64,000 bases of DNA from Mycolicibacterium fluoranthenivorans (lineage in GTDB: Bacteria > Actinomycetota > Actinomycetes > Mycobacteriales > Mycobacteriaceae), in assembly GCF_011758805.1 (NCBI RefSeq), contig NZ_JAANOW010000001.1, positions 3,286,001-3,350,000 on the forward strand, in the 5' to 3' direction. How positions within the stretch are numbered: the first letter of the stretch is position 1; each line of letters begins with the position of its first letter. A model generated the notes under the pieces. It did not search any database and had not been told where the DNA came from. It saw nothing but the letters and a program-made list of their open reading frames with translations. The translations under genes were made by a program, and so were the position numbers. Of the stretch, positions 1-52,889 are shown in pieces.

Positions 1-1419
1 GTAGGTGCCGGGGTAGTGCACCTGGCCCGCCGTCGACTCCGGCGCGGCGCCCCGGGTGGCGAAGTAGCCGTTTCCCAGCGTGCACAACGCTTCCCGAAGT
101 TTCTCGGTCTGCGGATCGTATCCGTCGAAGGTGTACTCCCACGACGTGCCCGAGGCCTGGTGCTTGTAGGCCAACCATTTTGATCCACGCTCCAAGAACT
201 CACGTACCTCCTCGGGACTCTGCAGGCTGAAACGTGCGGCAGTCTTACGATCTCCGTCTTCGTCATGTCTGACGACGATCCCGACTCCGTCGAAGTGCAC
301 CGCGTCAAAGGCGTCTTCGTCGGTCAGGTCGTCGCCGATGTAGATCGGCAGCAGGGCAACGGCCGGGTCGATGCGATCACGGATCCAGGCCAGCGTGGTG
401 CCCTTGTCCCAGTCGATATCCGGCCGTAACTCGACGATCTTGCGTCCGCTGGTCACCCGCAGGCCGTCACGATGGCCGATGTGGTGGGTCAGTGCCACGA
501 TCTCATCGACGTGTTCCGGTGCGACCTCGCGGTAGTGCACCGCGACGGCAAAGCGCTTGTGCTCGACGCGAACACCCGCGATCTTCGCCAGGGTAATGGT
601 CAATTCGGCTGCGGCGTGCTCCAGCAGGGGGACCGACGTCGCTGCCGCTTCGTTGCAGTGGTACGTGCCGTCCGGTCCGGTCAGCTCGAAGCCGTGGCTG
701 CCGGCGTACCAGATGCCGGGTGTGCCGACCCGGGAGCGAACGTCCGCAAGGTCCCGGCCGCTGAGGATGGCAACGGGGCACACTGCCGCAACGAGTCCCA
801 GTGCCTCGGCTGCGCCGTCGACAAGCGCGGCCGCATCGGGATCGGACACGATGGGCGCCAATGTCCCGTCGTAGTCGAGGAACACCATCGACTCTCGGGC
901 ACTGGTGATCCCGATCAGCTGACCGTAGGACGTCAGCGCATTCGGCAGTGTGGAGATGAGCCTGTCGCCGCTCCGGACGGCGACTTCCGCCAAGTCGGCG
1001 ACGACGGCGTCGGCACCGCAACGCAACAAGTCCCCTTGTCCGGCGCGATCGACGCCGATGACGACCGCGAACCCGCCTTCGCGGCCCGCCGTCACCCCGG
1101 CGCAGGTGTCCTCGACGACAACGCACCGTTGCGGCCGCACACCCAGTCGCTGCGCCGCATCGGCCAGCACGGCAGTCCCGCGCGAGCCGCCGATTCCGTC
1201 GATGCACACGTCGAACAGGACATCCACCCCGGCGTCCTTCAAGGCGTGCTGACAGTTCGGGCTCGACGAATGGGCCGCGGTGGCGACGCCGATGCCGCGT
1301 AGTCTCCTGGCCAGGTCGACGGCCGCCTCGAAGAGCGGTGCGTCGCTGGTCAGTGCACTGTCGAGGTTGAGCAACACCGCGCCGTGGTAGCGCGGGTCGA
1401 TGGTGACCGGCGGTGTCAT
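1..1419 (-). CDS. otsB1: OtsB1-type HAD / trehalose-phosphatase / GH65 fusion (5' part, runs off the left edge)
   Basis: About 473 N-terminal residues are in the window. Residues ~10-165 resemble a beta-phosphoglucomutase-type HAD domain (VVVEDTCAG motif), but its motif I reads NLDSA, so the usual nucleophilic Asp is Asn and this domain is probably not catalytic. Residues ~175-400 are a trehalose-6-phosphate phosphatase domain with FLDYDGTL (Asp182/Asp184) and a GDDLTDED motif. From ~420 a glycoside hydrolase 65 N-terminus begins (TLGNGYFATRG). This order is that of M. tuberculosis OtsB1 (Rv2006), about 1,330 residues. The likely role is trehalose or trehalose-phosphate metabolism in the cytosol. 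The ATG overlaps the ppsA stop by ATGA, so the two genes share a transcript. The C-terminus cannot be seen. Confidence 0.88.
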   Translation of the reverse strand, partial: MTPPVTIDPRYHGAVLLNLDSALTSDAPLFEAAVDLARRLRGIGVATAAHSSSPNCQHALKDAGVDVLFDVCIDGIGGSRGTAVLADAAQRLGVRPQRCVVVEDTCAGVTAGREGGFAVVIGVDRAGQGDLLRCGADAVVADLAEVAVRSGDRLISTLPNALTSYGQLIGITSARESMVFLDYDGTLAPIVSDPDAAALVDGAAEALGLVAAVCPVAILSGRDLADVRSRVGTPGIWYAGSHGFELTGPDGTYHCNEAAATSVPLLEHAAAELTITLAKIAGVRVEHKRFAVAVHYREVAPEHVDEIVALTHHIGHRDGLRVTSGRKIVELRPDIDWDKGTTLAWIRDRIDPAVALLPIYIGDDLTDEDAFDAVHFDGVGIVVRHDEDGDRKTAARFSLQSPEEVREFLERGSKWLAYKHQASGTSWEYTFDGYDPQTEKLREALCTLGNGYFATRGAAPESTAGQVHYPGTY

Positions 1420-3812
1420 CGAACCGGCACGGGTTGTGCCTCCAACTGCAGGACCTGGCGGGTGGTCTTCACCACCGTGTCGGGATTCAGACTCATCGAC
1501 TCGATACCGATCCGGACCAGGAACTCGGCCATGTCCGGGTAGTCCGAGGGTGCCTGCCCACACAGGCCCGAGTGAATCCCGTTGCGTCGACAGCCTTCAA
1601 CAGCCAGGCGAATCATCTCCTTGACGCCCTCGTCGCGTTCGTCGTAGTCGAAGGCCACGATCTCACTGTCCCGATCGACGCCGAGGGTGAGCTGAGTCAG
1701 GTCGTTGGAGCCGATGGAGAAGCCGTCGAAGCGCTTGGCGAATTCGTCGATGAGGATCACATTGTTCGGGATCTCGCACATCGCGTACACCTTGAGCCCG
1801 TTCTCACCACGCCGCAGCCCGAGGTCGGCCATTGTGGCCAGGACTAGGTCCGCCTCGGCGACGCGACGCACGAACGGAAGCATCAGGATCACGTTCGTCA
1901 AGCCCATCTCTTCGCGCACCCGTCGCATCGCGCGGCACTCGAGCGCGAAGCCCTCGGCGTAGGCGGGGTGTGCGTAACGGGAGGCGCCCCGGAACCCGAG
2001 CATCGGGTTGCTTTCGGACGGCTCGAAACCTGCGCCGCCCAAGAGGCTGGCGTACTCATTGGTCTTGAAGTCCGACATCCGCACCACGACCGGCTTGGGC
2101 CAGAAGGCGGCGGCGATGGTGCCGATTCCTTCGGAAAGGCGTTCCACGAAGAAGGCGCCGCGGTCTGGGTAGCCCTGCGTGAGCTGATCTATCGTCCGAC
2201 GCGCCTCGGGATCGTCGACTTTTTCGGGGTGCAGCAGGGCAAGGGGGTGAACCCGGATGTACTCGCTGATGACGAACTCCATCCGAGCGAGACCGACACC
2301 GTCGTTCGGCAGGAACGAGGTCTTGAAGGCGAGGTCGGGGTTGCCGAGGTTGATCATGATCTGGGTTCGCGGGCGTGCCAGGTCCGCCACCTCGGTGCCG
2401 TCCACATGGAAGGGCAGTTCGCCCTGGTACACACGACCCGAGTCGCCCTCGGCGCAGGACACCGTCACCACCTGACCGTCAGGTAAGCGGGTGGTCGCGT
2501 TCCCGGTGCCCACCACGGCGGGGATGCCGAGTTCCCTGGCGATTATCGACGCGTGGCAGGTGCGGCCACCGCGGTTGGTGACGATCGCAGCGGCGGTCTT
2601 CATCACCGGCTCCCAGTCCGGCGTTGTGGTGTCTGCAACCAGCACCTCGCCCGGCTTGAATTCGTTCAGCTGCGTGAGGTTCTCGATTCGACGGACCGGA
2701 CCCGAGGCGATTCTCTCGCCGACTGAGCGACCCTCGACGAGTATCTCGCCTCTCCCATCCAGTACGTAAGCCTCCAGGGCCGTCACGCTGTGCTGGGAGG
2801 CAACCGTCTCGGGACGGGCCTGCACGATGTAGAGCTTTCCGTCGATACCGTCCTTGGCCCACTCCATGTCCATGGGCCGCCCGTAGTGCGCTTCGATCGT
2901 GCACGCGTAGCCGGCGAGCTCCAGGACGTCGGCATCGGTGAGGCAGAACCGGGTACGGTCGGCCCTGGGCGTCGGGATGTTGCGCGTGGTGTTCTTCGTC
3001 TCCCCGTCGACGAGGATCATCTTCACCGCTTTGTCGCCAAGGAGGCGGCGCAATACGGCGCGGTGGCCGGCGAGGTAGGTCGGCTTGTGGACGTAGAATT
3101 CGTCGGGGTCGACCGCGCCCTGGACCACGTTCTCACCGAGACCGTAGGCGCCGGTGATGAAGACGGCGTCGCGAAAGCCCGACTCGGTATCGATGGAGAA
3201 CATCACCCCCGACGAAGAGATGTCGGAGCGCACCATCTTCATCACGCCGATCGACAGCGAGACCTTGAAGTGGTCAAAGCCCTGGTCGACTCGGTAGTGA
3301 ATGGCGCGATCGGTGAACAAGCTGGCGAAACAGCGGCGGCAGGTGTCGAGCAGACTCGCTTCACCTTTGATGTTGAGATAGGAGTCCTGCTGGCCGGCGA
3401 AGCTGGCGGTCGGCAGGTCCTCGGCGGTCGCCGAACTGCGGACGGCGAGACTGACCTCTTCGCCGTACTCCTGCTGAAGTGCACGGTAGCCATCCCGAAT
3501 CTGGGCGGCCAGATCCTCGGGAAGTCCTGCGCCGTATACGATCTCGCGGGCGCGCTTGGCTTTTCGCGCCAGCGCCTCGACGTCGGCGGGGTCCAGACCG
3601 TCGAGTTCGGCGTGTAGGCGTTCCCACGCGCCGGCTTGGTCCAGCATGTAGCGGTAAGCCGCAGCCGTGATGGCGAAGCCGTGTGGGACACGGACGCCGC
3701 GGCTGGACAGCTTCTGGAACATCTCGCCCAGCGAGGCGTTCTTGCCGCCGACCAGCGGGACGTCGCCGATGCCGATTTCCTCAAAGAAGCGGACGTACTC
3801 CGATGTACCCAT
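1416..3812 (-). CDS. ppsA: Phosphoenolpyruvate synthase (pyruvate, water dikinase)
   Basis: This 798-residue enzyme makes PEP, AMP and phosphate from pyruvate, ATP and water, feeding gluconeogenesis. The N-terminal PPDK-type ATP-binding domain begins GGKNASLGEMF. The swivelling domain carries TCHASIIAREL with phosphohistidine at His420, and the C-terminal PEP/pyruvate barrel carries SGLCGQAPSD with the proton-donor Cys at 751. These positions and the length match E. coli PpsA (792 aa) rather than PPDK. The ATG at 3812 is preceded by GAGAGGGG; an in-frame extension upstream lacks a good ribosome site. It overlaps otsB1 and is divergent from hoxF, with a DosR-like palindrome about 75 bp upstream of the start. 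Confidence 0.93.
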   Translation of the reverse strand: MGTSEYVRFFEEIGIGDVPLVGGKNASLGEMFQKLSSRGVRVPHGFAITAAAYRYMLDQAGAWERLHAELDGLDPADVEALARKAKRAREIVYGAGLPEDLAAQIRDGYRALQQEYGEEVSLAVRSSATAEDLPTASFAGQQDSYLNIKGEASLLDTCRRCFASLFTDRAIHYRVDQGFDHFKVSLSIGVMKMVRSDISSSGVMFSIDTESGFRDAVFITGAYGLGENVVQGAVDPDEFYVHKPTYLAGHRAVLRRLLGDKAVKMILVDGETKNTTRNIPTPRADRTRFCLTDADVLELAGYACTIEAHYGRPMDMEWAKDGIDGKLYIVQARPETVASQHSVTALEAYVLDGRGEILVEGRSVGERIASGPVRRIENLTQLNEFKPGEVLVADTTTPDWEPVMKTAAAIVTNRGGRTCHASIIARELGIPAVVGTGNATTRLPDGQVVTVSCAEGDSGRVYQGELPFHVDGTEVADLARPRTQIMINLGNPDLAFKTSFLPNDGVGLARMEFVISEYIRVHPLALLHPEKVDDPEARRTIDQLTQGYPDRGAFFVERLSEGIGTIAAAFWPKPVVVRMSDFKTNEYASLLGGAGFEPSESNPMLGFRGASRYAHPAYAEGFALECRAMRRVREEMGLTNVILMLPFVRRVAEADLVLATMADLGLRRGENGLKVYAMCEIPNNVILIDEFAKRFDGFSIGSNDLTQLTLGVDRDSEIVAFDYDERDEGVKEMIRLAVEGCRRNGIHSGLCGQAPSDYPDMAEFLVRIGIESMSLNPDTVVKTTRQVLQLEAQPVPVR

Positions 3813-4193
3813 AACCTGCCCCTCTCGTGGCACGTCACGCCACGTCGCAAATGCCAACCTCTCACTCCGGCTCGGGCGATGACAGGGCCGAAGGTCACTG
3901 GAATGGGTCGCAGCGACGGGATCGGTGCGCGCTTCGGTGGGGCCAGCATGGATTTCGACACTCCGGACGTTGATCTCGGAGAACCGAGGCCCTTGTCCTC
4001 TGGTGCACGACCGCGATCGTCGTCAGAATCTGGGTTGCGTGGAGTTGAAGTCGATGCCCTGACCAGACCGAAGATCCGACGAGGAGATCACTATGTCGCC
4101 GCGATTGGCAGCGAAAACGACTATTCGACAACGCAAGAGCAGTTCAGCCATGGTAACTTTGCCGCCTGGCTTACTGCTCGAGTAGGGCGGCGC
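3813..4193. promoter_or_regulatory. Divergent intergenic region between ppsA and the hox operon
   Basis: These 381 bases lie between the ppsA and hoxF starts and must hold both promoters. The hoxF reading frame stays open leftward through this stretch, but the homology to HoxF begins only at 4194, so the upstream part is treated as non-coding. One good and one poor DosR-like palindrome were seen. Confidence 0.6.
3884..3898 (-). promoter_or_regulatory. Candidate DosR (DevR) binding site
   Basis: On the minus strand this reads GTGACCTTCGGCCCT. It fits the mycobacterial DosR pattern GGGACNNTNGNCCCT at every fixed position except the second. It lies 72-86 bp before the ppsA start and about 300 bp before hoxF. 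The match is by eye against a remembered consensus. The neighbouring genes (OtsB1 type, cytosolic hydrogenase) are types known in mycobacterial dormancy regulons, which raises its plausibility. Confidence 0.5.
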
Positions 4194-5978
4194 ATGACGA
4201 CCGATATCGCGACGATTCTCGACCGGTACGCGCGAGACCGCACCAGGCTCATCGACATCCTCTGGGATGTACACCGCGAGGACGGCTACGTTTCTGCTGA
4301 AGCCGCTGCCCGGATAGCCGAATGGCTCGGGCTGACAGTCGGAGACGTTCTGGAGACGGTGACGTTTTACCATTTCTTCCACACCACACCGGCGGGCCGC
4401 CATCGCATCTATCTGAGCAACAACGTCATCGCCAAGACGCGCGGCTACCGCGAGGTGTATGCCGCCTTGGAAGACACGACCGGAACACGGTTCGGCGCGC
4501 CAGGCTCGGCTGATTTCGGATTGTTCGAAACCGCGTGCATCGGATTGAGCGACCATGAACCGGCGATGCTGGTCGACGATGTCGTATTCACCGATCTGAC
4601 ACCTGCCACTGTCGCCAAGGTCATCGAGCGCATGCAAAACGGTGAGTCCGCGGCGAACATCGCGAATCCGGCCGGCCTGTCGTGCGACGAGGTGGCGTAT
4701 GTCGAAGCGCTGGTCCCCAGCGCCGTGCATACGACGGGGCCGGTGTTCTTCGGTCTCGACACCGATTACCGAGCGCTACTGGACCGCTGCCTCGGCATGA
4801 CGCCGGAAGCCGTGATCGCGACCATCTCGGAATCCGGGCTGCGGGGACTGGGTGGTGCGGGATTCCCTACAGGCAATAAGTGGAAGTTGTGCCGCGCGGC
4901 CGCCGGCGCCGAGAAGTACATCATCTGCAACGCAGATGAGGGCGAACCGGGGACGTTCAAGGACCGGGCTTTGCTGACGAAGTCACCCAAGCAGGTGTTC
5001 GCGGGTATGGCGATCGCGGCCCACGCCGTCGGCGCCCGTCGCGGCATCTTTTACCTTCGCGGCGAATACGTGTATCTGCAGGCCTACCTCGCCAGGCAAT
5101 TGGCCGAGTTACGCGACGACGGGGTACTCGGCGGCGGCTTCGACATCCGCATCCAGCTCGGCGCCGGCGCCTACATCTGTGGTGACGAAACCGCGCTGAT
5201 CGAATCCTGCGAGGGAAGGCGGGGTACGCCGCGGCTCAAGCCGCCCTTCCCGGTCGAGCACGGTTTCCTGGGCCAGCCGACGGTGGTGAACAATGTCGAA
5301 ACATTCGCCGCGGCGAGCCGAGTCATGCAGGAGGGCGCCGGATGGTTCACGTCGATGGGCGTGCCAGGGTCATCGGGTACTCGGCTGCTCAGCGTCTCCG
5401 GTGACTGCGCCGCGCCAGGGATATACGAGGTGGAGTGGGGAGTGAGGTTGCTTGAGGTACTCGACATGATCGGCGCAGACGACGCCCGGGCGGTCCAAAT
5501 CAGTGGACCGTCTGGCGAGATGCTCTCGGTGGCGGCCGACGGCGACCGCAGGCTGGCCTACGACGATCTGTCCTGCAACGGCTCGTTCATGGTGTTCAAC
5601 CACGACCGTGACCTGATCGACGTCGTCGCGGACTTCACGCAGTTTTTCGTCGACGAATCCTGTGGCATCTGCGTGCCGTGCCGGGCCGGTAACGTGCTGC
5701 TACGTCAGAAGGTTGGCTTGGTGGCCGCCGGGGAGGCGATGCCGTCCGATCTCGACGACATGGTTGCCTGGGGTGAGATCGTTTCGCGTACCAGCCGATG
5801 CGGATTGGGCGTCACCTCATCCAATCCGATCCTGACAACGCTGAACAAGTTCCCGGAGATCTACCGGGCCGGACTTCGTGAGCCCAACGACGGTGTACTG
5901 CCGTCCTTCGACGTGGTGGCCGAGCTTTCCGGCTATGCGCGGGCCGTTGCCGAACTCGCACCGCAAGAGTCAACGTGA
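4194..5978 (+). CDS. hoxF: NAD-reducing [NiFe] hydrogenase diaphorase subunit HoxF
   Basis: This 594-residue flavoprotein transfers electrons between the hydrogenase module and NAD(H). Residues 1-~150 are a NuoE-like thioredoxin-fold domain, and ~190-590 are NuoF-like with FMN/NAD loops (GLGGAGFPTGNKW near 217; NADEGEPGTFKDR). A [4Fe-4S] motif is formed by Cys490, Cys493, Cys496 and Cys536. The NuoE-like part keeps only Cys115 (TACIGLSD), so it cannot bind the usual four-Cys [2Fe-2S] cluster; the R. eutropha HoxF family is similar in length (about 602 aa) and NuoE/NuoF fusion. The ATG at 4194 begins the homology. It overlaps hoxU by GTGA and is the first gene of hoxFUYHW. Confidence 0.93.
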   Translation: MTTDIATILDRYARDRTRLIDILWDVHREDGYVSAEAAARIAEWLGLTVGDVLETVTFYHFFHTTPAGRHRIYLSNNVIAKTRGYREVYAALEDTTGTRFGAPGSADFGLFETACIGLSDHEPAMLVDDVVFTDLTPATVAKVIERMQNGESAANIANPAGLSCDEVAYVEALVPSAVHTTGPVFFGLDTDYRALLDRCLGMTPEAVIATISESGLRGLGGAGFPTGNKWKLCRAAAGAEKYIICNADEGEPGTFKDRALLTKSPKQVFAGMAIAAHAVGARRGIFYLRGEYVYLQAYLARQLAELRDDGVLGGGFDIRIQLGAGAYICGDETALIESCEGRRGTPRLKPPFPVEHGFLGQPTVVNNVETFAAASRVMQEGAGWFTSMGVPGSSGTRLLSVSGDCAAPGIYEVEWGVRLLEVLDMIGADDARAVQISGPSGEMLSVAADGDRRLAYDDLSCNGSFMVFNHDRDLIDVVADFTQFFVDESCGICVPCRAGNVLLRQKVGLVAAGEAMPSDLDDMVAWGEIVSRTSRCGLGVTSSNPILTTLNKFPEIYRAGLREPNDGVLPSFDVVAELSGYARAVAELAPQEST

Positions 5979-6706
5979 CCATCCGGATCGAGATCGACGG
6001 TGATGCCGTGACCACCGAGAAAGGCAGGACACTCGTCGACGTGGCCGCGGAGGCGGGCGTCTACATCCCGACGTTGTGCTACCTGCCCGAACACCCCGCA
6101 CTGGGGACGTGCCGGGTGTGTTCGGTCAGGGTCAACGGCACGGTCACGGCGGCCTGTGCGGTCAAGGTCAGCGAGGGGATGCGCGTTGAGGTCAACGACC
6201 CCGAACTCGCCGACGTCCGCAAGGCTTTGGTGGAGATGTTGTTCTCCGAGGGCAATCACAACTGTCCCAGCTGTGAGAAATCCGGTCGATGCACACTGCA
6301 GGCGGTGGGCTACGAGGTGGACATGGTGGTCTCGCGCTTTCCGTACCAGTTCCCCGAGCGGGTCGCCGACCATGCCTCGGAGAGGATCTGGCTGGAGCGC
6401 GACCGCTGCATTTTCTGCCAACGATGCGTGGAGTTCGTTCGGGATCTCGACACTGGCAAAAAGATCTTCAGCATCAGTGGCCGTGGGGGAGATGCTCGTA
6501 TCGAGATCGACATCGAACTGGCCAACGCCATGCCCGCCGAGCAGATCCGAGAGGCTGTCGACATCTGTCCGGTCGGAACGATCCTCCAGAAAGGTGTGGG
6601 CTATGACCAGCCCATCGGCGAGCGGAGCTACGACCTCGAATCGGTGAGAGACCAGGCGCTGGAACCGTCGCGGAGGGGTGAGAGTGACCACATCGGACAC
6701 CAATGA
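5975..6706 (+). CDS. hoxU: NAD-reducing hydrogenase iron-sulfur subunit HoxU
   Basis: The protein has 243 residues and corresponds to the N-terminal part of complex I NuoG. Cys35, Cys46, Cys49 and Cys61 make a plant-type [2Fe-2S] site. They are followed by the NuoG-type HNCPSCEKSGRC cluster motif and a ferredoxin-like RCIFCQRC / DICPVG segment. It wires electrons between HoxF and the HoxYH hydrogenase dimer in the cytosol. The GTG start overlaps the hoxF stop by four bases. Its 3' end overlaps hoxY by 23 bases. This is the known Hox subunit order. Confidence 0.93.
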   Translation: MTIRIEIDGDAVTTEKGRTLVDVAAEAGVYIPTLCYLPEHPALGTCRVCSVRVNGTVTAACAVKVSEGMRVEVNDPELADVRKALVEMLFSEGNHNCPSCEKSGRCTLQAVGYEVDMVVSRFPYQFPERVADHASERIWLERDRCIFCQRCVEFVRDLDTGKKIFSISGRGGDARIEIDIELANAMPAEQIREAVDICPVGTILQKGVGYDQPIGERSYDLESVRDQALEPSRRGESDHIGHQ

Positions 6707-7313
6707 GTTTGCTTCGCACGAACTTCCAGCCACACCGCTTGACCCTGAACTCGCCGCCACGCGCGCGGCCAAGATCAAGATCTCGATGATCAGCCTCTGC
6801 GGCTGCTGGGGATGCAGCTTGTCGTTGCTCGACATCGACGAGCGGATGATCACCCTGTTGGACAAGATCACGATATTGCGATCGTCGTTCACCGATATCA
6901 AGCGCATTCCGGAGCGGTGCGCGATCGGATTCATCGAAGGTGGGGTCGCCAACGAGGAGAACATCGAGACGCTGCGGCACTTCAGGGAAAACTGCGATGT
7001 GCTGATCTCGGTCGGCGCCTGCGCGATCTGGGGTGGCGTACCGTCCCTGCGTAACCTGGTCGGGCTCAAGGATTGTCTTGCCGAGGCCTACACGGACTCT
7101 CTGACGAGGCCGCCCGGCTCACGTCCGGTGGTGCCCTTCGACCGGCGGATCCCGGTCCTCACAAATAACGTGTACCCGTGCCACGAGGTCGTGCACATGG
7201 ACTATTTCCTGCCTGGTTGCCCGCCGAGTGCCGACGCGATCCTCGACGTGCTCGAGGATCTGATCAACGGGCGCCCGGTGAATCTGCCCAAGACACTGAA
7301 CCAGTTCGACTGA
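6684..7313 (+). CDS. hoxY: NAD-reducing hydrogenase small subunit HoxY
   Basis: This 209-residue small subunit carries the proximal [4Fe-4S] cluster next to the NiFe site. It shows LCGCWGC (Cys39, Cys41, Cys44), VGACAIWGG and the C-terminal FLPGCPPSAD motif. It lacks the Tat signal and long C-terminus of membrane-bound uptake hydrogenases, as expected for cytosolic group 3 enzymes. A GTG at 6678 is also possible, but GGAGGGG at 6672-6678 is spaced better for the GTG at 6684. It overlaps hoxU and is followed 16 bases later by hoxH. Confidence 0.92.
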   Translation: MTTSDTNEFASHELPATPLDPELAATRAAKIKISMISLCGCWGCSLSLLDIDERMITLLDKITILRSSFTDIKRIPERCAIGFIEGGVANEENIETLRHFRENCDVLISVGACAIWGGVPSLRNLVGLKDCLAEAYTDSLTRPPGSRPVVPFDRRIPVLTNNVYPCHEVVHMDYFLPGCPPSADAILDVLEDLINGRPVNLPKTLNQFD

Positions 7314-7329
7314 TCAGGGGACAGCGCGC

Positions 7330-8796
7330 ATGGCGAAGACGATCGTGATCGATCCGATCACCCGCATCGAGGGACATGGGAAGGTGGTCATCGAACTCGA
7401 TGACCACCACCACGTCACCGATGCCAAGCTGCACGTGGTCGAGTTCCGCGGCTACGAGAGGTTCATCCAGGGTCACCCTTACTGGGAGGCGCCGGTCCTC
7501 ATGCAGCGAATCTGCGGTATCTGCTGTGTCAGCCATCATCTGGCCGGGGCCAAGGTGCTCGACGACATGATCGGAGTGGGCCCGGCGTCCGGGACTCGTC
7601 TCACCTCCACCGCAGTCAAGATGCGCCGCCTTGGTCACTACGCGCAGATGCTGCAGTCGCATGTCACGGCCTACTTCTATCTGGTCGTGCCGGAGATGTT
7701 GTTCGGCATGGATGCCGCACCCGAGCAACGCAATTTCATTGGGCTGATCGAGGCCAATCCTGATCTGATGAAACGTGTTGTCCGGCTACGCAAATGGGGC
7801 CAGGAAGTCATCGAGGCCGTTTTCGGTAAGCGCATGCACGGTATCTCCGCAGTGCCCGGCGGCGTGAACAAGAACCTCTCCGCCTCCGACGTGGATCGAT
7901 TCCTGCGGGGCGAGGACGGACTGTCGTCTGTCGACGAGGTCATCGAGGACGCCCAGCTGGGCCTGCAGATGTTCTACGACTTCCACGAGCAGCACCGTGT
8001 CGAGGTGGACGGCTTCGCAACGGTGTCTGCGCTGAACATGTGCCTGGTGGATGACGACGGGAACGTCGACTATTACGACGGCAGGCTCAAGGTGGTCGAC
8101 GAGCAGAAGAAGCTCGTACGTGAATTTGATTACCGCGACTATCTCGAACACATCTCCGAGGGGGTGGAAAAGTGGAGCTACATGAAGTTCCCCTACCTCA
8201 CCGACCTCGGCCGCGATGCCGGGTCGGTGCGGGTAGGTCCGCTGGCGCGGCTCAACGTCACACGATCCTTGTCGACCCCGATTGCCGCGGAGGCGCTGGA
8301 CAAGTTCCACGCCTACACCCGCGGACGCGCCAACAACATGACGCTGCATACGAATTGGGCGCGAACCATCGAGATCATCCACGCAGCCGAAGTGGTCAGG
8401 GACCTTTTGAACGACCCAGATCTGCAGAAGGACCAGCTAGTGGTCGCGCCGGGTGCAGATGCCTGGGTCGGGGAGGGGGTCGGTGTCGTGGAAGCACCTC
8501 GGGGCACCCTACTGCACCACTACCGTGCCGATCGCGAAGGGAGCGTCACCTTCGCCAACCTGATCGTCGCCACCACACAGAACAACCAGGTGATCAACCT
8601 GACGGTGCGCAGCGTGGCCGAGGACTATCTCGACGGCCAGCCGGAGATAACGGAGGGCATGATGAACGCTATCGAGGTGGGGATCCGGGCCTATGATCCG
8701 TGCCTGAGCTGCGCCACCCACGCGCTGGGTCAGATGCCGTTGACGGTCACGGTGGTGGACGCGAAGGGCCACGTGCTGGATGAACGTCAACGCTGA
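7330..8796 (+). CDS. hoxH: NAD-reducing hydrogenase large subunit HoxH (NiFe site)
   Basis: The 488-residue large subunit holds the NiFe(CN)2CO centre. The ligand motifs are RICGIC (Cys62, Cys65) and DPCLSCATH (Cys458, Cys461). The 24 residues after His464 match the C-terminal peptide that the HoxW-type endopeptidase removes; the family member in R. eutropha has the same length and cut position as I recall it. L1 reads CGICCVSHH, with a third Cys (66) where Pro is more common. It overlaps hoxW by 17 bases. Substrates are H2 and, through HoxFU, NAD+. Confidence 0.95.
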   Translation: MAKTIVIDPITRIEGHGKVVIELDDHHHVTDAKLHVVEFRGYERFIQGHPYWEAPVLMQRICGICCVSHHLAGAKVLDDMIGVGPASGTRLTSTAVKMRRLGHYAQMLQSHVTAYFYLVVPEMLFGMDAAPEQRNFIGLIEANPDLMKRVVRLRKWGQEVIEAVFGKRMHGISAVPGGVNKNLSASDVDRFLRGEDGLSSVDEVIEDAQLGLQMFYDFHEQHRVEVDGFATVSALNMCLVDDDGNVDYYDGRLKVVDEQKKLVREFDYRDYLEHISEGVEKWSYMKFPYLTDLGRDAGSVRVGPLARLNVTRSLSTPIAAEALDKFHAYTRGRANNMTLHTNWARTIEIIHAAEVVRDLLNDPDLQKDQLVVAPGADAWVGEGVGVVEAPRGTLLHHYRADREGSVTFANLIVATTQNNQVINLTVRSVAEDYLDGQPEITEGMMNAIEVGIRAYDPCLSCATHALGQMPLTVTVVDAKGHVLDERQR

Positions 8797-9301
8797 GCCG
8801 CCTTGCTTGTCGGGCGATATCTTCGCCAATTCGACCTCGTTGATCTACGGCATCGGAAACGTGGGACGACAGGACGACGGACTGGGCTGGGCCTTTGTCG
8901 ACAGGCTCGAACAGTGCATTCCTGCACTACCCGCGCACCTGCGCCGCACCTATCAGCTCGGCTTCGAAGACGCGGATTTGATCAGTCGATATGCGCGGGT
9001 GCTGTTCATCGACGCCACCAAAGATCCAGCGGTCGAATCATTCACACTCAGCCGGCCCGAGCCCGAACTGGATCTCAGCTTTACCTCCCATGCGATTTCG
9101 GTGCGGGCGATCCTGGCTACCACACTGCAGTGTTTCGGGCAGATCCCTGACGCTTATCTGTTGGCGATCCGCGGCTATGAGTGGGAACTTCAGGAGGGAT
9201 TGACGGGCCCCGCCGAAAGCAACCTCGAGGAGTCACTGGACCTGATCCCGAGGCTGGCCAGCCGCTCCAATCGACGGCCGAACGACGCGAGTGCTGGCTG
9301 A
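8780..9301 (+). CDS. hoxW: HoxW-type hydrogenase maturation endopeptidase
   Basis: This 173-residue peptidase (HycI/HoxW, M52 family) should remove the C-terminal peptide of HoxH after nickel insertion. It has the family's N-terminal GIGNVGRQDDGLG motif with the conserved acidic residues and a later RGYEWEL segment. It starts inside hoxH and is the last gene of the operon. No hypA-F genes follow, so cofactor assembly must be supplied from elsewhere in the genome. A HoxI homologue is also absent. Confidence 0.88.
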   Translation: MNVNAEPPCLSGDIFANSTSLIYGIGNVGRQDDGLGWAFVDRLEQCIPALPAHLRRTYQLGFEDADLISRYARVLFIDATKDPAVESFTLSRPEPELDLSFTSHAISVRAILATTLQCFGQIPDAYLLAIRGYEWELQEGLTGPAESNLEESLDLIPRLASRSNRRPNDASAG

Positions 9302-9672: not shown

Positions 9673-11739
9673 GTGACGTTGCCGACCCTTTCGCCCCAGC
9701 AGGGCGGGCGATCCAAGCGCCTCGACATTCAGGGAATGCGCGCAGTAGCTGTGGCGCTGGTCGTCCTGTTCCATGCGGGGATCCCCGGTTTTGGCGGTGG
9801 TTACGTCGGCGTCGACGTGTTCTTTGTGATCTCAGGCTTCCTTATCAGCACCCACTTGCTGGAGAGTCTGCAGAATGGCGGCCGTATCGGTTACGCCGGG
9901 TTCTACGCGCGGCGGGCACGGCGCCTGCTGCCCGCGGCGTTCCTCGTGATCGTCGCCACGTTGATTGCGGCGACGATCGTGGTTTCGCCCGTGCAGTTCG
10001 GTTATGTCGTCAAAGACGCCGTCGCGGCCGCGCTCTACGTTCCCAACCTGTTGTTCGCGTACAACGCGACCGACTACCTCGCGGAAAAGACACCTTCGCT
10101 GTTTCTGCATTACTGGTCGCTCGGCGTGGAGGAGCAGTTCTACCTGGTGTGGCCCGTGCTGCTGGCGTTTGTGTTCGGGCGGTTCGCGTTGCGGTGGCGA
10201 TTCGGGTTCACGCTCGCCGGTTTGACCGGGGCTTCGTTCCTGCTGTGTGTGTGGCTGACCGGATTCAGCCAGGCGAATGCATTCTTCCTGTTGCCCGCCC
10301 GCATGTGGGAGTTCGGGCTCGGCGCCCTCGTGGCCCTTGGTCTGCTCCGGCGTGGCCGTGTTCTGCCGTCTTCGATCGCCCCGTTGGCGGGATGGGTCGG
10401 GTTGGGCGCCATTACCGCCGGTGGAGTCCTGTTCTCCACGGTCACCGAGTACCCGGGGTACGCGGTGGCCGTCCCCGTCATCGGGGCGGCGCTGCTGATC
10501 GCAGCCGGACCCGTCGCCCGCGGGCCCGCCGTCATCCTGAGTCTTCGCCCCGTCACCTGGCTCGGTGACATCTCCTACTCGCTGTACCTGGTGCACTGGC
10601 CTGTCCTGATGCTGCCCGTCGCCGCGACGGGATATATGGAAACCCTGCCGCTTTGGCTGCGGGTCATTGCCGCGACGGCATGCGTTCCGCTGGCCTGGCT
10701 GCTCTATCGGTATGTAGAACGACCGGGTCAGCGAGCGGCGTGGCTGACCGCCGCGCGTCCGCGCCGAACCTTCGCAGTGGCCGCGGCCGGGATGGCCGCC
10801 ATCGTCGTGGTCGCGGCGACGGCCGTGGTGACCCTCAACCGGCCACTGAGTACCGCCAAACCCGTGGCACATACGCCGTTGACCCTAAAACCCGCAGGCA
10901 CGCCGTACGTCCCGGACAACCTCAGCCCTGCCCTCGAGGCGGCCGAGAGCGACCAGCCCGTCGTCTACGCCAACGGCTGCCATCAGTCGCAATGGTCCAC
11001 CGACGCCACCGGCTGTCTGACCGGGACCAACCCGGGGGCACCTCTGGTGGCATTGTTCGGGGATTCCCATGCCACGCAGTGGTATCCGGCGCTGTCGGCG
11101 CTGGCCGAGCGTGGGGTGATACGGCTCGACAGCCATACCAAGAGTGCGTGCCCGGCCGTACCGATCCGCATTGCGCACTATGCGGCATGTGCTGCCTGGC
11201 GCAGCGCGGTGATCGACAAGCTCGTCGAGTCGAAACCCGACCTGATCCTGCTTGCCGGCTACCCGCGCAACTACCTGAGCCGATCGGATGCCCCGGCAAG
11301 GGATTGGGGGAGCGCACTGACCACCCTCCTCGATCAGTTACCCAGGGCGTCGCGCGTTGGCGTGTTCGCGGATACGCCGTCGATCGGCGTCACGCCGGCG
11401 ATCTGCCTCGGGCGTTTCGTCGACGACGCGCTGCGCTGCGCATTACCGCGCACCGTCGCGCTCGATCAAAACATCCGCGCGACCGAGCGTGAGCTGGCGG
11501 CCGGTCGATCGGTCACCTATCTGGACTACGCCGACTATCTGTGCAACGACAGCGTGTGCCCGGCGATCATCGGTGACACGCTGGTGTACCGGGACGGTTC
11601 TCATCTCACCGCGACCATGAGTGCCGGATTGGCGCCGTTGGTCGGCGCCGACGTCACCGCCCTGCTGCCCGCGGCGCGGGGTAACCTGACCGCCGCTCCG
11701 GCCGGTCGCCAGCTGCTCATCGGCCGGCCGGGCGGATGA
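9673..11739 (+). CDS. Membrane acyltransferase-3 with C-terminal SGNH domain (OafA-like)
   Basis: The protein has 688 residues. Residues ~15-400 form an acyltransferase-3 domain of about ten membrane segments that begins RLDIQGMRAVAVALVVLFH and includes the VDVFFVISGFLIS segment. After a last membrane segment (~365-385), residues ~450-680 form an SGNH hydrolase-like domain with Ser465 in LFGDSHATQW and Asp641/His644 in RDGSHLT. Such fusions O-acylate cell-surface glycans or glycolipids. The acceptor cannot be inferred here. The start is GTG after GCGGAAG. It stands alone, not in an operon. Confidence 0.9.
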   Translation: MTLPTLSPQQGGRSKRLDIQGMRAVAVALVVLFHAGIPGFGGGYVGVDVFFVISGFLISTHLLESLQNGGRIGYAGFYARRARRLLPAAFLVIVATLIAATIVVSPVQFGYVVKDAVAAALYVPNLLFAYNATDYLAEKTPSLFLHYWSLGVEEQFYLVWPVLLAFVFGRFALRWRFGFTLAGLTGASFLLCVWLTGFSQANAFFLLPARMWEFGLGALVALGLLRRGRVLPSSIAPLAGWVGLGAITAGGVLFSTVTEYPGYAVAVPVIGAALLIAAGPVARGPAVILSLRPVTWLGDISYSLYLVHWPVLMLPVAATGYMETLPLWLRVIAATACVPLAWLLYRYVERPGQRAAWLTAARPRRTFAVAAAGMAAIVVVAATAVVTLNRPLSTAKPVAHTPLTLKPAGTPYVPDNLSPALEAAESDQPVVYANGCHQSQWSTDATGCLTGTNPGAPLVALFGDSHATQWYPALSALAERGVIRLDSHTKSACPAVPIRIAHYAACAAWRSAVIDKLVESKPDLILLAGYPRNYLSRSDAPARDWGSALTTLLDQLPRASRVGVFADTPSIGVTPAICLGRFVDDALRCALPRTVALDQNIRATERELAAGRSVTYLDYADYLCNDSVCPAIIGDTLVYRDGSHLTATMSAGLAPLVGADVTALLPAARGNLTAAPAGRQLLIGRPGG

Positions 11740-28245: not shown

Positions 28246-29232
28246 CTACGGCCCCTCGACCGCTAGGGTCAGCGCTCGGACCACGCCGTGCACACCGAGA
28301 TCCACCTTGAAGCCGTTGTGCGGCAGCGGCTGTGCCCCGGCGAGTGCTGCGCTGGCGGCCGCCTCGAAGACCGACCTGCCCGGCGGATTGCCGCGCAACA
28401 GGTCCTCGGCCGCGGGCACCCGCCACGGCGTCGCAGCAACCGCACCAAGCGCAATCGCCGCGCCGGCGATCGCACCGTCGCGGATCTCGACCGCGGCCGC
28501 CACCGAGACCAGGGCGAACGCGTAGCTGTGACGGTCGCGAACCTTGAGATACCAACCGCTGCGGGATGCGCTCGACGCGGGCAGTTCGATACCGGTGATG
28601 AGCTCGCCGGCGCGCACCGCGTTGTCGATGTCCGGCCGGTCGCCGGGCAGGCGGAAGAACTCGTCGATGCCGAGCGTCCGCGCACCGCCGTTGCCTCGAA
28701 GGTGGACGGTTGCGTCCAGACTCGTCAGGGCCACCGCCATGTCGGAGGGGTGGACCGCCACGCAGGACCGGCTCGCGCCGAAGACCGCGTGCTCGCGGTG
28801 GTGCTCGGCCAGCGCCGCGCATCCGCTGCCCGGGCGGCGTTTGTTGCACGCGCCGAGGGCGGGGTCCATGAAATAGCGACACCGGGTCCGTTGCATCAGG
28901 TTGCCCGCCGCCGTGGCGCGATTCCGTATCTGGTTCGTCGCGCCGCTCAGGATGGCCTGCGACAGCAGCGGATAATTCCGGCGGATCAGGGGGTGGTTGG
29001 CGACGGCGGTGTTGGTGGCCAGGGCACCGATCATCACTCCGCCCGTGGGTGTCGGTTCGATCTCCGACAAGTCGAGTCGGGTTATGTCGACCACCACGCT
29101 CGGCTGCTCGACATTGCACTTCATCAGGTCGACGAGGTTGGTGCCCCCGGCAAGATACTGCGCACCCTGCTGAGCCGCGCAACGCAGCGCATCCTCGACC
29201 GAGGATGCGCGGTAGAACTCGAAAGCCTTCAC
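28246..29232 (-). CDS. Aldehyde oxidoreductase FAD-binding subunit (PaoB-like)
   Basis: This 328-residue CO-dehydrogenase/xanthine-dehydrogenase FAD subunit has the FAD loops YLAGGTNLVDLM and GALATNTAVA. A Cys-rich insert (RCRYFMDPALGACNKRRPG, then SGCAALAE, with a further Cys in ASRSCVAVHPSDMA) matches the [4Fe-4S]-binding insert of E. coli PaoB, as I recall it. It is the last gene of a PaoC-A-B operon, and its ATG overlaps the preceding stop. It passes electrons from the molybdenum subunit to an acceptor. Confidence 0.85.
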   Translation of the reverse strand: MKAFEFYRASSVEDALRCAAQQGAQYLAGGTNLVDLMKCNVEQPSVVVDITRLDLSEIEPTPTGGVMIGALATNTAVANHPLIRRNYPLLSQAILSGATNQIRNRATAAGNLMQRTRCRYFMDPALGACNKRRPGSGCAALAEHHREHAVFGASRSCVAVHPSDMAVALTSLDATVHLRGNGGARTLGIDEFFRLPGDRPDIDNAVRAGELITGIELPASSASRSGWYLKVRDRHSYAFALVSVAAAVEIRDGAIAGAAIALGAVAATPWRVPAAEDLLRGNPPGRSVFEAAASAALAGAQPLPHNGFKVDLGVHGVVRALTLAVEGP

Positions 29233-29765
29233 CGACGTCGGTCCTCGGCCACGGCCACGATTGCTGCCACAATGTTGGCGTAGGCGCCGCAGCGGCAGAT
29301 GTTGCCGGCCATCCGCTCTCGGATCTCTTTGTCTGTGAGCGAGATTGGCCCGTCGACAAGGGCGCCGCGGTGCTCATCGAAAGACACCGCCGAGAGGTCC
29401 CCTCGGGCGTGTTCATCGAGCATGGCGCGCGCCGAACAGATCTGACCGGGTGTGCAGAAGCCACATTGCAGACCGTCGTGGTCGAGGAACGCCCGCTGCA
29501 GAGGGTGCAGTCCGGACTCGGGCGTTATCCCCTCGATCGTGACGATCTCGGCGCCGTCGATCGAGGCTGCCAGCACCAGACAGCTCAGCACCCGTTCCCC
29601 GTCGACCGTCACCGTGCAGGCACCGCAGAGCCCATGGTCGCAACCCTTCTTGGTTCCGGTCAGGTGCAACCAATCTCGCAGCAGGTCCAGCAAGGTGGTT
29701 CGGACGTCGATCACCAGCGTGTACGGCACGGTGTTGACCCGCACGCTCAGGGTGGTCTCGGTCAT
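29229..29765 (-). CDS. Aldehyde oxidoreductase [2Fe-2S] subunit (PaoA-like)
   Basis: The 178-residue protein has both [2Fe-2S] motifs of the family: GCDHGLCGACTV with a downstream LSCL, and CGFCTPGQI with NICRCGAYANI. Unlike E. coli PaoA it has no Tat signal peptide; the chain begins directly MTETTLSVRVNT. The complex is therefore probably cytosolic. It overlaps both neighbours by ATGA. Confidence 0.92.
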   Translation of the reverse strand: MTETTLSVRVNTVPYTLVIDVRTTLLDLLRDWLHLTGTKKGCDHGLCGACTVTVDGERVLSCLVLAASIDGAEIVTIEGITPESGLHPLQRAFLDHDGLQCGFCTPGQICSARAMLDEHARGDLSAVSFDEHRGALVDGPISLTDKEIRERMAGNICRCGAYANIVAAIVAVAEDRRR

Positions 29766-31927
29766 CGGCGGGGTCCGACGGGCATCATCAGGTCTTCGAC
29801 GGTGATAGGCAGCTTGCGCAACCGCTTGCCGGTGGCGTGATGAATCGCGTTCGCGATCGCGGCGGGCGCGCCCGCAATACCGATCTCACCGATACCGCGC
29901 AGGGTCGGCCCGGGGAAATAGTCGACAGGCTTCTCGGTGAATTCGATGTCGAAGTCTGGCCGGTCGGCGTGCGTGGGAAGGTAGTACTCACCGCCGCGCC
30001 GCAACGAGGCGCGATCCTCCGATATCTGTTCGAGCAGAGCCATTCCGATACCGAAGGTGATGCCGCCCATCAGTTGGCTGCGGGCCAACTTCGGGTTGAG
30101 TACCGGTCCGCAGGCGAAGGCGGCCGTCCATCGGGTGACGGCGGCACGGCCGAGGTACTCGTCGACCTCGACCTCGCAAAAATGCGCCCCGAACGATCGG
30201 ATGCTGACGTCGTCGTCGATTTTTGCCGATGTCGTCACCGAAAAGGTCAGTGCTGCAATCTGTTCTGGAGACAGCCCCACCAGCGAATGGACCGCCGGTG
30301 CTGCGCTCGGGGCGACTTCGCTCAGGCGGCGCCGCCATTGGGTCGCGGCCTCGGCGACTGCGGCGCCGACGGTGGCGGTGGTCTGCGATGCGCCGCTGCG
30401 CGGCGTCGCAGGGTAGGACGAGTCGCCGGAGTCGAAGATTACCGCCGACAACGGCAGCCCGGTGATGTCGGCGGCGAGTTGGGTCATCACGGTGCGCACC
30501 CCGGTGCCGATCTCGTGCGTGGCCGAAGCGAACCGCACGCATCCGTCGGCTCCGGTGGTGACCCGGCACCCCGCCGTCATCCGGCGGGCGGGAAATGTTG
30601 CGGTGGCCATTCCCCAGCCCACCTGAACGTGACTTCGGCGAAGGCTACGAACCCCGGGCGGCCGGTTCGCCCAGCCGAACCGATCCGCCGCCGACCGGTA
30701 GCAGTCCAGCAGGTGCTTGTCCAACCACGGTCTGCCGCTGCTTTCGTCGATCTCGGTGTGATTGCGGATCCGCAGTTCCAGCGGGTCCACCCCCACCTGT
30801 TCGGCCAATTCGTCCATGGCCACCTCCAAGGCGAACAATCCACTTGCCTCACCGGGTGCGCGCATGAACGAGGGTGTAGGGACGTTGACGCGCTCAACGC
30901 GGTGGGAGACCTCCAGCCGTGGCGAGTGATAGAGAAGCCTGCTCGACAATCCGGCCGGTTCACAGAAATCCGCGACCAGGGAGGTTTCGGTGACCGTGTG
31001 GTGTGCGGTGCTGCAGATTGCCCCGTCGGCATCGGCCAACAAGGTGACCTCCTGCTCAGTGCGGGGGCGGTAACCGGCGGTATCGAACATCTGCTCGCGG
31101 GTGAGCACCAGCTTGACCGGTCGGCCCACCTCGCGCGCCGCGACCGCGCACAACAGCACGTGCGACCACAGAAAGACTTTTGCTCCGAACGCGCCGCCCA
31201 CCAGAGGTGAGATCACCCGAACGGAGGGTTCGGGCAGATCCAGGCAGTGCGCCAGCAGTCGCTTCTCACCGCTGATCCAGCGGGTGCTGTCATAGACGGT
31301 AAGCCGGTCGCCGTCCCACCGGGCAATTGTGGCCGATAGCTCCAGCGGGTATGGAACGGTCGCCGACGTGGTGTATTGACCCGAAACACTCACCGGGACA
31401 GTCGGTTCAGTCAGCTCGCCGCGTCGGTCCTGGAGTTTCTCGTCGGCCACCTCCACCCAGTGGTCGGGCCAGTAGCTGCCGGAGCGTACGGCTGCGTCGT
31501 CATCGGTTGCGACCTGCCGGTAGTCCAACGTGAACTGCGAGGCGGCGTAGGTGGCGTTCTCGAACGAGTCGGCGATGACGACCGCGACGTGCTGCCCGAC
31601 GTGGTGCACGCTCAGATCCGAGAGCGGAGGTCGCCGCTCAACCGGCCAGGTCTCACTGAAGTCGGCGGGCGGAGGATTCAGCCGCGGGCAATTCATCGGA
31701 GTCAGTACCCCTAGCACGCCGGGGGCCGCCCGGGCGCGTGCCGCCGACTCTGTCATCGACTCGGCGGTGATCTGCCCGCGGGCGATCTCGGCACCGACGA
31801 GCACTGCGTGTACCACGCCGGGCATCTCGGTGTCGGCGGTGTACCGGGCCGCGCCGGTCACCTTGGCTACGCCGTCCACCCGGTTCACCGGTGCCCCGAC
31901 GCGGGGCGCCGCAGGACCGAGTGCCAT
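29762..31927 (-). CDS. Aldehyde oxidoreductase molybdopterin subunit (PaoC-like)
   Basis: The ~721-residue xanthine-oxidase-type subunit binds molybdopterin cytosine dinucleotide. It shows VDGVAKVTGAARYTAD near the start, GGAFGAK, FMRAPGE and the catalytic-glutamate region GIGEIGIAG near the C-terminus. The ATG at 31927 is chosen because GGAGGTG precedes it at good spacing; an ATG six bases earlier is too close. It is first in the operon. Substrates in the family are aromatic and other aldehydes. No XdhC/PaoD-type maturation gene is nearby. Confidence 0.9.
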   Translation of the reverse strand: MALGPAAPRVGAPVNRVDGVAKVTGAARYTADTEMPGVVHAVLVGAEIARGQITAESMTESAARARAAPGVLGVLTPMNCPRLNPPPADFSETWPVERRPPLSDLSVHHVGQHVAVVIADSFENATYAASQFTLDYRQVATDDDAAVRSGSYWPDHWVEVADEKLQDRRGELTEPTVPVSVSGQYTTSATVPYPLELSATIARWDGDRLTVYDSTRWISGEKRLLAHCLDLPEPSVRVISPLVGGAFGAKVFLWSHVLLCAVAAREVGRPVKLVLTREQMFDTAGYRPRTEQEVTLLADADGAICSTAHHTVTETSLVADFCEPAGLSSRLLYHSPRLEVSHRVERVNVPTPSFMRAPGEASGLFALEVAMDELAEQVGVDPLELRIRNHTEIDESSGRPWLDKHLLDCYRSAADRFGWANRPPGVRSLRRSHVQVGWGMATATFPARRMTAGCRVTTGADGCVRFASATHEIGTGVRTVMTQLAADITGLPLSAVIFDSGDSSYPATPRSGASQTTATVGAAVAEAATQWRRRLSEVAPSAAPAVHSLVGLSPEQIAALTFSVTTSAKIDDDVSIRSFGAHFCEVEVDEYLGRAAVTRWTAAFACGPVLNPKLARSQLMGGITFGIGMALLEQISEDRASLRRGGEYYLPTHADRPDFDIEFTEKPVDYFPGPTLRGIGEIGIAGAPAAIANAIHHATGKRLRKLPITVEDLMMPVGPRR

Positions 31928-32206
31928 GGGCATCACCTCCGCACTACCAGCCACCCTAGGGCCGCCAGTCCCCTTCGGCCACCGAACCGCGTGGACCGGC
32001 TACGGGTGCGTGCGCGGGTTGCCAAGGAATGGCGCTCGGGGCGGCTGGACGCGCGGACCGGAACTGATCGGCCTCAAGTTTCCTCTAAGAACTGCTCACG
32101 ATTCGCCAACACCAACCGTCTCTTCAGTGTCAACGACGTAGCCGCTATGAGGATCGAGAGCTGCAATCCTGATCCTCCACCCGCATGAGTTCTGCGCCAA
32201 GGACAG

Positions 32207-33180: not shown

Positions 33181-33657
33181 ATGGAGAGACTCCCCGAAAT
33201 GACAAGCAAGGTGACGACGTTGGTCCGCTCGGCCGGGATGGAAGATCCTGGTCGGGTGGTTAACGATGCAACGCAACGTCCCGATCCCGAGGTGCCCGAA
33301 CGCGCCAGGCGGCGGACCTTCACCGCGAAGTACAAGCTGGAGGTCCTCGCTGCCTACGACGCAGCACCCGACGGCGAGAAGGGCGCGGTGCTGCGCCGTG
33401 AGGGGCTGTATTCCAGCCACATCACCGAATGGCGCAAAGCCCGCGATGTCGGCGCGTTGGCGGGGCTGGCCGCCCCACGTGGGCGCAAGCGCCGTGATCG
33501 GCAGGCCGAGCAGATCGCCCGCCTGCAAGCAGAAAAGCAGCGACTGGAGCAGGAGCTGGCGAAGACCCGCGCCGTGGTGGATGTGCAGGCAAAACTGCAC
33601 GCGCTCTTGGAGACGCTCTCCGAGAGCGCGGACATCGATCCGAGGTCGACACGATGA
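33181..33657 (+). CDS. IS3-family transposase OrfA
   Basis: The 158-residue protein has a helix-turn-helix region (RTFTAKYKLEVLAAYDAA, then GAVLRREGLYSSHITEWRKA) and a C-terminal leucine-zipper-like coil (QIARLQAEKQRLEQELAKTR). It binds the IS ends. An internal Met at 33199 is an alternative start. Its stop overlaps the orfB ATG. Confidence 0.88.
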   Translation: MERLPEMTSKVTTLVRSAGMEDPGRVVNDATQRPDPEVPERARRRTFTAKYKLEVLAAYDAAPDGEKGAVLRREGLYSSHITEWRKARDVGALAGLAAPRGRKRRDRQAEQIARLQAEKQRLEQELAKTRAVVDVQAKLHALLETLSESADIDPRSTR

Positions 33658-52702: not shown

Positions 52703-52889
52703 CGGCCACCCTTCCGATACGTTGCCACGTCGACACCGTGCCGGCGTGGGATATACCGATGGTGCGCCGGCGACCGGGTGTACCGAAAGGGCGGAAGGCA
52801 CCATGGCCGAAGGGCATTTGGTCACTACTCGACGTGTGGGACTGTCCCTGGAGGCACATGGGCGGCCCTTCGAGCGGGTAACGAACGTC

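Follow-up and report, generated by a model that had tools for sequence, protein, structure and literature searches.

The closest described counterparts of the locus considered here are the group 3d soluble hydrogenase of Cupriavidus necator H16 and the Hyh hydrogenase of Mycobacterium smegmatis (MSMEG_3927-3931), which we take to be a group 3b enzyme. The locus itself, the hydrogenase operon hoxFUYHW, occupies positions 4194-9301 of a 64,000-nucleotide stretch of the Mycolicibacterium fluoranthenivorans genome (contig NZ_JAANOW010000001.1, here C1, positions 3,286,001 to 3,350,000; hereafter the window). It adjoins an operon that begins with the phosphoenolpyruvate (PEP) synthase gene ppsA and includes a gene for pyruvate:ferredoxin oxidoreductase (PFOR). 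We consider it fairly probable, short of real confidence, that the two form a module for fermentation under hypoxia, with Hox disposing of NADH by releasing H2 and standing in for the 3b enzyme. A precedent is provided by Hyh, whose hypoxia gene cluster, msmeg_3926-3955, also holds PEP synthase: in the accessible text of a study that terms mycobacteria obligate aerobes, hydrogenase genes 3927-3931 of M. smegmatis rise 7.6- to 67-fold at 0.6% oxygen and PEP synthase 23-fold, the latter with a P value of 0.08 (PMC2799521). The available part of another report presents Hyh as fermentative and under DosR control (PMC13098282), and that of a third ascribes fermentation roles to 3b and 3d enzymes (PMC7784904). 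In the literature covered, work on anoxic electron disposal by mycobacteria has dealt with M. smegmatis and its third hydrogenase. Among the papers listed in the literature searches, none was recognised as treating mycobacterial hydrogenases of group 3d; a table in the accessible part of PMC2974642, the columns of which are not legible with certainty, gives M. marinum with two hydrogenase accessions.

On homology, the window encodes an intact and complete NAD-linked hydrogenase of the group 3d type. HoxH is 75% identical to the recorded HoxH of C. necator H16, with which it shares a C-terminal tail of similar size, and 76% identical to the Ni/Fe hydrogenase alpha subunit of Rhodococcus opacus. 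The closest solved structures of both HoxH (5xf9_D) and HoxF (5xf9_A) belong to a NAD-reducing hydrogenase, presumably that of Hydrogenophilus thermoluteolus. Structure match, identity and tree all group HoxH with known 3d enzymes, the diaphorase module HoxFU carries NuoE/F- and NuoG-like domains, and the NiFe and Fe-S ligands are intact; NAD(H)-linked turnover of H2 is the activity predicted from this homology. Mycobacterial 3b HyhL is of a different class, being only about 30% identical to HoxH and matching best (G029) to sulfhydrogenase models and structures, and the subunits found beside HoxH are HoxFUY, not those of the B and G type. HoxH therefore does not group with 3b, and the class proposed in a first-pass annotation of this DNA, 3d and not 3b, is borne out by homology and by the HoxH tree; its description of the hoxFUYHW order, of a fused NuoE/NuoF HoxF and of a 24-residue HoxH tail likewise proved accurate.

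The five genes, all on the plus strand, overlap or are tightly spaced. HoxF is a fusion of NuoE-like and NuoF-like parts (PF01257, PF01512 and PF10589), and the HoxH tail extends beyond His464 of the C-terminal DPCxxCxxH motif. The NiFe ligand motifs of HoxH (RICGIC and DPCxxC) are invariant in an alignment of 14 sequences, and HoxU, HoxY and the NuoF-like part of HoxF retain their cysteines across five sequences, the four relatives including Achromobacter and Amphritea. No NCBIfam model matches HoxH at its cut-off, and HoxW has no Pfam match, despite scoring above the cut-off of TIGR00072. In the NuoE-like domain of HoxF (window 4194-4700), a single cysteine is common to all five aligned HoxF sequences, so that the usual NuoE [2Fe-2S] cluster may be missing in this HoxF branch. 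The C. necator-type hoxFUYHW gene set is shared, the five genes also standing together in Achromobacter (L109). The window differs downstream from the C. necator arrangement, in which hoxI and hyp genes come after hoxW: here hoxW is followed by an acyltransferase and a hydrolase gene, with no hoxI or hyp gene.

Across the genus, the two classes show a mosaic and nearly exclusive distribution. In a scan of 297 genomes, in which at most five candidates per genome were scored for HoxH and for HyhL and at most two for PFOR, group 3d (HoxH of at least 71% identity) was found in 31 genomes and group 3b (HyhL at E ≤ 1e-60) in 120, while 147 have neither. A single genome holds both, against 12.5 expected (hypergeometric P of 8.8e-7, if genomes are independent), and no 3b large subunit was matched at 1e-60 in the genome of the window (G000). 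Class replacement gains support from this near-exclusive distribution. The 3d operon is thus not the common arrangement at this locus in all mycobacteria, which would have spoken against the first-pass suggestion that another class fills the 3b slot; that suggestion is strengthened by the distribution, whereas the tree-corrected tests described below are still weak. Among the named species that carry 3d are M. xanthum, M. tusciae, M. lacusdiani and M. pyrenivorans, and 3d protein records name M. vanbaalenii (HoxH in clade B, below), M. gadium, M. hodleri, M. rhodesiae JS60 and M. vinylchloridicum. The sole genome with both classes (G282; L050:7424-11211) has a decayed 3b operon, with two in-frame stops in hyhL, one in the protease gene and a shortened hyhB.

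In the HoxH tree, mycobacterial sequences form two clades, A (12 of the 31 3d genomes, that of the window included) and B (19 genomes, of which G008 was placed by identity only), and proteobacterial enzymes share the same large group. Clade B stands next to R. opacus and G337, and a single mycobacterial clade uniting A and B is not rejected (p-AU of 0.306). G337 (74%) is the one HoxH found outside the genus at E ≤ 1e-120 in a family scan of 401 genomes; no other match in a phylum scan (396 genomes, E ≤ 1e-100) exceeds 46% identity, and the viral contigs searched contain no HoxH relative.

The partner of hox is an apparent minus-strand operon with the order ppsA-otsB1-fnr-por-pyrD, in which each gene overlaps the next by a few bases, the start of otsB1 overlapping the stop of ppsA. 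Gene calls put ppsA and otsB1 both on the minus strand, in keeping with the divergent layout first described. The window edge clips otsB1 (the whole gene, C1:3283763-3287419, encodes 1218 residues), and the operon continues to the left of the window with a GltD-like oxidoreductase (fnr), PFOR (por) and a PyrD-like gene. Coupling to PFOR is a new element, outside the view of the first-pass annotation. PFOR (matches at E ≤ 1e-200, two genomes only at 61% identity) occurs in 31 of the 297 genomes: 12 of the 31 with 3d, 19 of the 119 with 3b only and none of the 147 with neither. Genomes with either class therefore account for all cases (31/150 versus 0/147; P of 1.1e-10, if genomes are independent). 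TGA codons were flagged in some PFOR matches; in L303, the one checked, the stop precedes the probable start and is an effect of an over-long query. An orthologue of ppsA (at least 80% identity) is present in 24/31 3d genomes, in 18 (two in pieces) of 49 3b genomes chosen, mostly as few-contig assemblies, from the 119 without 3d, and in none of 80 drawn at random from the 147 with neither. A second type of PEP synthase, about 42% identical and unlike that of the window, is found in 27/49, 6/31 and 13/80 of the 3b, 3d and neither genomes, respectively.

Start to start, no more than 20 kb separates hoxH from ppsA in 18 of the 31 3d genomes, as against 1/49 for hyhL in 3b genomes. For PFOR, 8 of 12 genomes have hoxH at a distance of up to 30 kb, as against 1/19 for hyhL, with seven more of the latter at 40-125 kb. 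This linkage occurs in both HoxH clades and in three orientations: divergent, as in the window; collinear (L097, which is G165); and tail to tail (L066, L076, L098, L103, L114 and L118). In L057 and L059 the two genes share a strand, hoxF coming after ppsA. Neither ppsA nor PFOR was found near hox at any of 16 non-mycobacterial loci, several of which have short flanks, nor at the sole locus from another genus of the family.

Fermentation that couples PFOR to a hydrogenase occurs in anaerobes. The M. fluoranthenivorans locus resembles that arrangement in that PFOR, a ferredoxin/NAD(P)H oxidoreductase-like gene and a hydrogenase adjoin, and is unlike it in that the hydrogenase is, by homology, NAD-linked rather than ferredoxin-linked. 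Gene content, the conserved cofactor cysteines, the box at ppsA and the mosaic distribution are observed; the following scheme can be proposed, in which the regulation, the route of electrons and the direction of the Hox reaction are inferred. Under hypoxia, DosR would induce the ppsA-PFOR operon, and hox as well, whether directly or not. PFOR would split pyruvate derived from stored carbon into acetyl-CoA and reduced ferredoxin, whose electrons could pass to NAD(P)+ through the GltD-like protein, its domains suggesting a link between ferredoxin and NAD(P)H. Hox would pass electrons from NADH to protons and release H2, which could be taken up again by Huc-like and 1h-like hydrogenases once oxygen returns, and would thereby do for this lineage what group 3b Hyh does in M. 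smegmatis. A broader proposition, which we hold somewhat short of probable, is that the class of hypoxia hydrogenase, 3b for 3d, has been exchanged repeatedly while the job was kept, and that some lineages have put together a cassette of PEP synthase, PFOR and Hox under DosR control, through which an 'obligate aerobe' would carry out a true pyruvate-to-H2 fermentation. A natural swap to a distant class, with a PFOR operon restricted in this sample to genomes that have a cytosolic hydrogenase, would make the fermentation hypothesis testable in environmental species and would set apart what the module conserves (the job) from what can be exchanged in it (the enzyme).

Several findings weigh against such a fermentation module, and the first concern regulation. 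A scan between ppsA and hoxF with the Mycobacterium tuberculosis DosR consensus gave weak matches only (best 10.0 of 15.4 at 3961; 9.0 at 3882), so a palindromic matrix was trained instead on 93 intergenic regions from 17 3b loci of other genomes, the decayed G282 locus included; two earlier trainings, which drifted to coding palindromes or were weak, were dropped in favour of this third one. The best matrix site between the two genes is the box at 3882-3901, whose score is reached by none of 200 shuffles (P of 0.005; 0.01 when read from ppsA). Sites scoring at least 8 occur in 15/23 intergenic regions of the genome's own universal stress protein (USP)/DosR stretch, in 2/17 regions in the rest of the window and in 1/17 of four other stretches; these 34 controls, from which L083 (0/2 at 8 or more) and L090 (1/6) are excluded, contain two regions with higher scores than the box (10.1 and 10.2). 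Two further box-like sites lie in the window at 52809 (10.1) and 52157 (5.9).

The box tracks ppsA rather than hoxF. At p ≤ 0.05, ppsA promoters carry one in 17 of 19 genomes irrespective of where hoxF is located, mostly 80-160 bp upstream and with a similar core, including three of four genomes with 3b; the count excludes L084, which repeats the window, and L306, a 57% paralogue with no box. In the collinear case, L097, the ppsA promoter has no box. Among hoxF promoters (400 bp upstream, same threshold; of 41 rows, six non-mycobacterial ones and the duplicate genomes L106 and L113, both without a box at that threshold, were left out), boxes are present in 4 of 13 from clade A and 13 of 20 from clade B, some of them 350-393 bp upstream, where they may serve a neighbour. 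The clade B counts make DosR control of hox plausible in much of that clade, while in the window, with a shared-region box 292 bp from hoxF, such control is putative. The DosR-like site of the first-pass annotation does exist at 3882-3901; its tie to hox is what the ppsA association and the mostly box-free clade A promoters call into question. Hox might instead be a passenger that landed beside the ppsA operon, with neither DosR control nor a functional tie. The 9/13 clade A promoters without a box, the variable orientation of hox to ppsA and the scatter of clade A on an rpoB tree (below) would all fit a passenger, yet in two HoxH clades hox keeps this partner through changes of orientation, and the clade B boxes contrast with none in 42 controls upstream of hoxU (nor were any found upstream of 11 otsB1 genes or of the six non-mycobacterial hoxF). 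We regard this alternative as rather improbable.

The neighbourhood is similarly divided. Dormancy neighbours, defined as an Acg-type nitroreductase (NF047509), USP, a GAF-GAF histidine kinase and a LuxR-type response regulator, with labels checked on seven examples (pyridoxamine-oxidase family included), are families that we assume to belong to the DosR regulon. They occur in 13/17 3b and 10/22 3d stretches, the response-regulator family in 6/17 versus 0/22 and the kinase in 6 versus 3. Twelve of the 22 3d stretches, that of the window among them, have no core dormancy neighbour. The idea of a dormancy-type locus thus finds no support in the neighbours of hox in the window, and the USP cluster of this genome (20 of 31 USP-domain matches, at C1:3608-3657 kb) is about 310 kb from hox.

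A second group of adverse points concerns descent. PFOR of this kind is missing from 19 of the 31 3d genomes and is therefore not required; it needs 17 changes on the rpoB tree, and its pair test has too few informative pairs. The tree covers 76 of the 297 genomes, picked by trait (28 with 3d, 30 with 3b and 18 with neither); of 80 intended, G008, G044 and G279 gave no match and G007 was omitted as fragmented. A first pair test for exclusivity, seemingly strong (0 versus 6-9 pairs), was set aside as its sample was overloaded with 3b genomes. Under balanced sampling of 3b and neither genomes, 4.6 independent pairs point in the expected direction and 0.08 in the opposite one, numbers too small to reach significance. 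The exclusivity might reflect shared ancestry or ecology, not replacement, an explanation with which the scarcity of pairs, the 147 genomes having neither class and the clustering of clade B on the rpoB tree (6 changes for 16 rows; shuffled mean 14.9) are consistent. It has to accommodate at least 15 changes for 3d overall and a sole overlap genome in which the 3b operon is broken, and we judge it unlikely. Clade A, with 11 changes for 12 rows, needs no fewer than shuffled labels do (mean 11.4).

The direction of the reaction is the remaining difficulty. In the accessible part of PMC4109961, the enzyme of R. eutropha, the best-known relative, makes NADH from H2, and expression data for a mycobacterial 3d enzyme were not found in the literature searched. 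Hox could accordingly oxidise H2 as in C. necator, yielding NADH for growth or persistence, with the proximity of ppsA incidental. Identities of 75-76% to the C. necator and R. opacus proteins and a branch shared with proteobacterial enzymes speak for this; linkage to ppsA-PFOR in both HoxH clades and near exclusivity with 3b speak against it, as does a genome that already has two uptake-type enzymes, and the balance leaves uptake an outside but serious contender. Three [NiFe] large subunits were found in this genome: HoxH and two others, of which one matches 7uus ('Hydrogenase-2, large subunit') and the other 5aa5 ('HofG'). We take 7uus to be Huc of M. smegmatis and 5aa5 to be of the 1h type, and hence the matching subunits to be Huc-like and 1h-like. 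Two hypD genes were located in the genome, 5-8 kb from the two uptake-type hydrogenase genes and neither near hox, so that Hox maturation, HoxW aside, is probably served in trans. The genome also encodes two regulators of the DosR-like type, which share 87% and 80% identity with that of G161.

Table 1. Features of the hox locus and of the adjoining ppsA-PFOR operon (window positions, or contig positions where prefixed C1)
Feature	Position	Strand	Description and evidence
PyrD-like gene	C1:3277544-3278554		
PFOR (por)	C1:3278554-3282135		full-length pyruvate:ferredoxin oxidoreductase; best solved match 6cin
fnr	C1:3282132-3283766		GltD-like pyridine-nucleotide/Fe-S oxidoreductase; domains
otsB1	1..1419	-	trehalose-phosphatase/glycosyl hydrolase 65 fusion; TIGR00685, PF02358, PF03632
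ppsA	1416..3812	-	phosphoenolpyruvate synthase, first gene of apparent operon; TIGR01418, PRK06464 above cut-off
ppsA-hoxF intergenic region	3813..4193		divergent; ORF starts
DosR-type box	3882..3901		score 9.6; 70 bp from ppsA start, 292 bp from hoxF start
hoxF	4194..5978	+	NuoE/NuoF-like diaphorase subunit, 594 aa; start consistent with 594-aa orthologues
hoxU	5975..6706	+	Fe-S diaphorase subunit; PRK07569 HoxU (below cut-off), NuoG-type Fe-S domains
hoxY	6678..7313	+	small hydrogenase subunit; PF01058
hoxH	7330..8796	+	[NiFe] large subunit, 24-residue C-terminal extension; PF00374, 5xf9_D, tree
hoxW	8780..9301	+	maturation protease; TIGR00072 above cut-off

Downstream of hoxW on the same strand (9673-11739) lies a SucT-like acyltransferase gene with AT3 and SGNH domains, scoring below the SucT cut-off; among the 20-kb hox stretches, it has a match in L063 only (27%). 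Molybdenum hydroxylase genes of the xanthine/CO dehydrogenase type are found at 28246-31954, the large subunit of which contains no AYxCSFR, presumably the motif of form I CO dehydrogenase. The region 33181-34676 holds an overlapping pair of genes that resembles an insertion-sequence transposase, an integrase core (rve) being present in the second gene.

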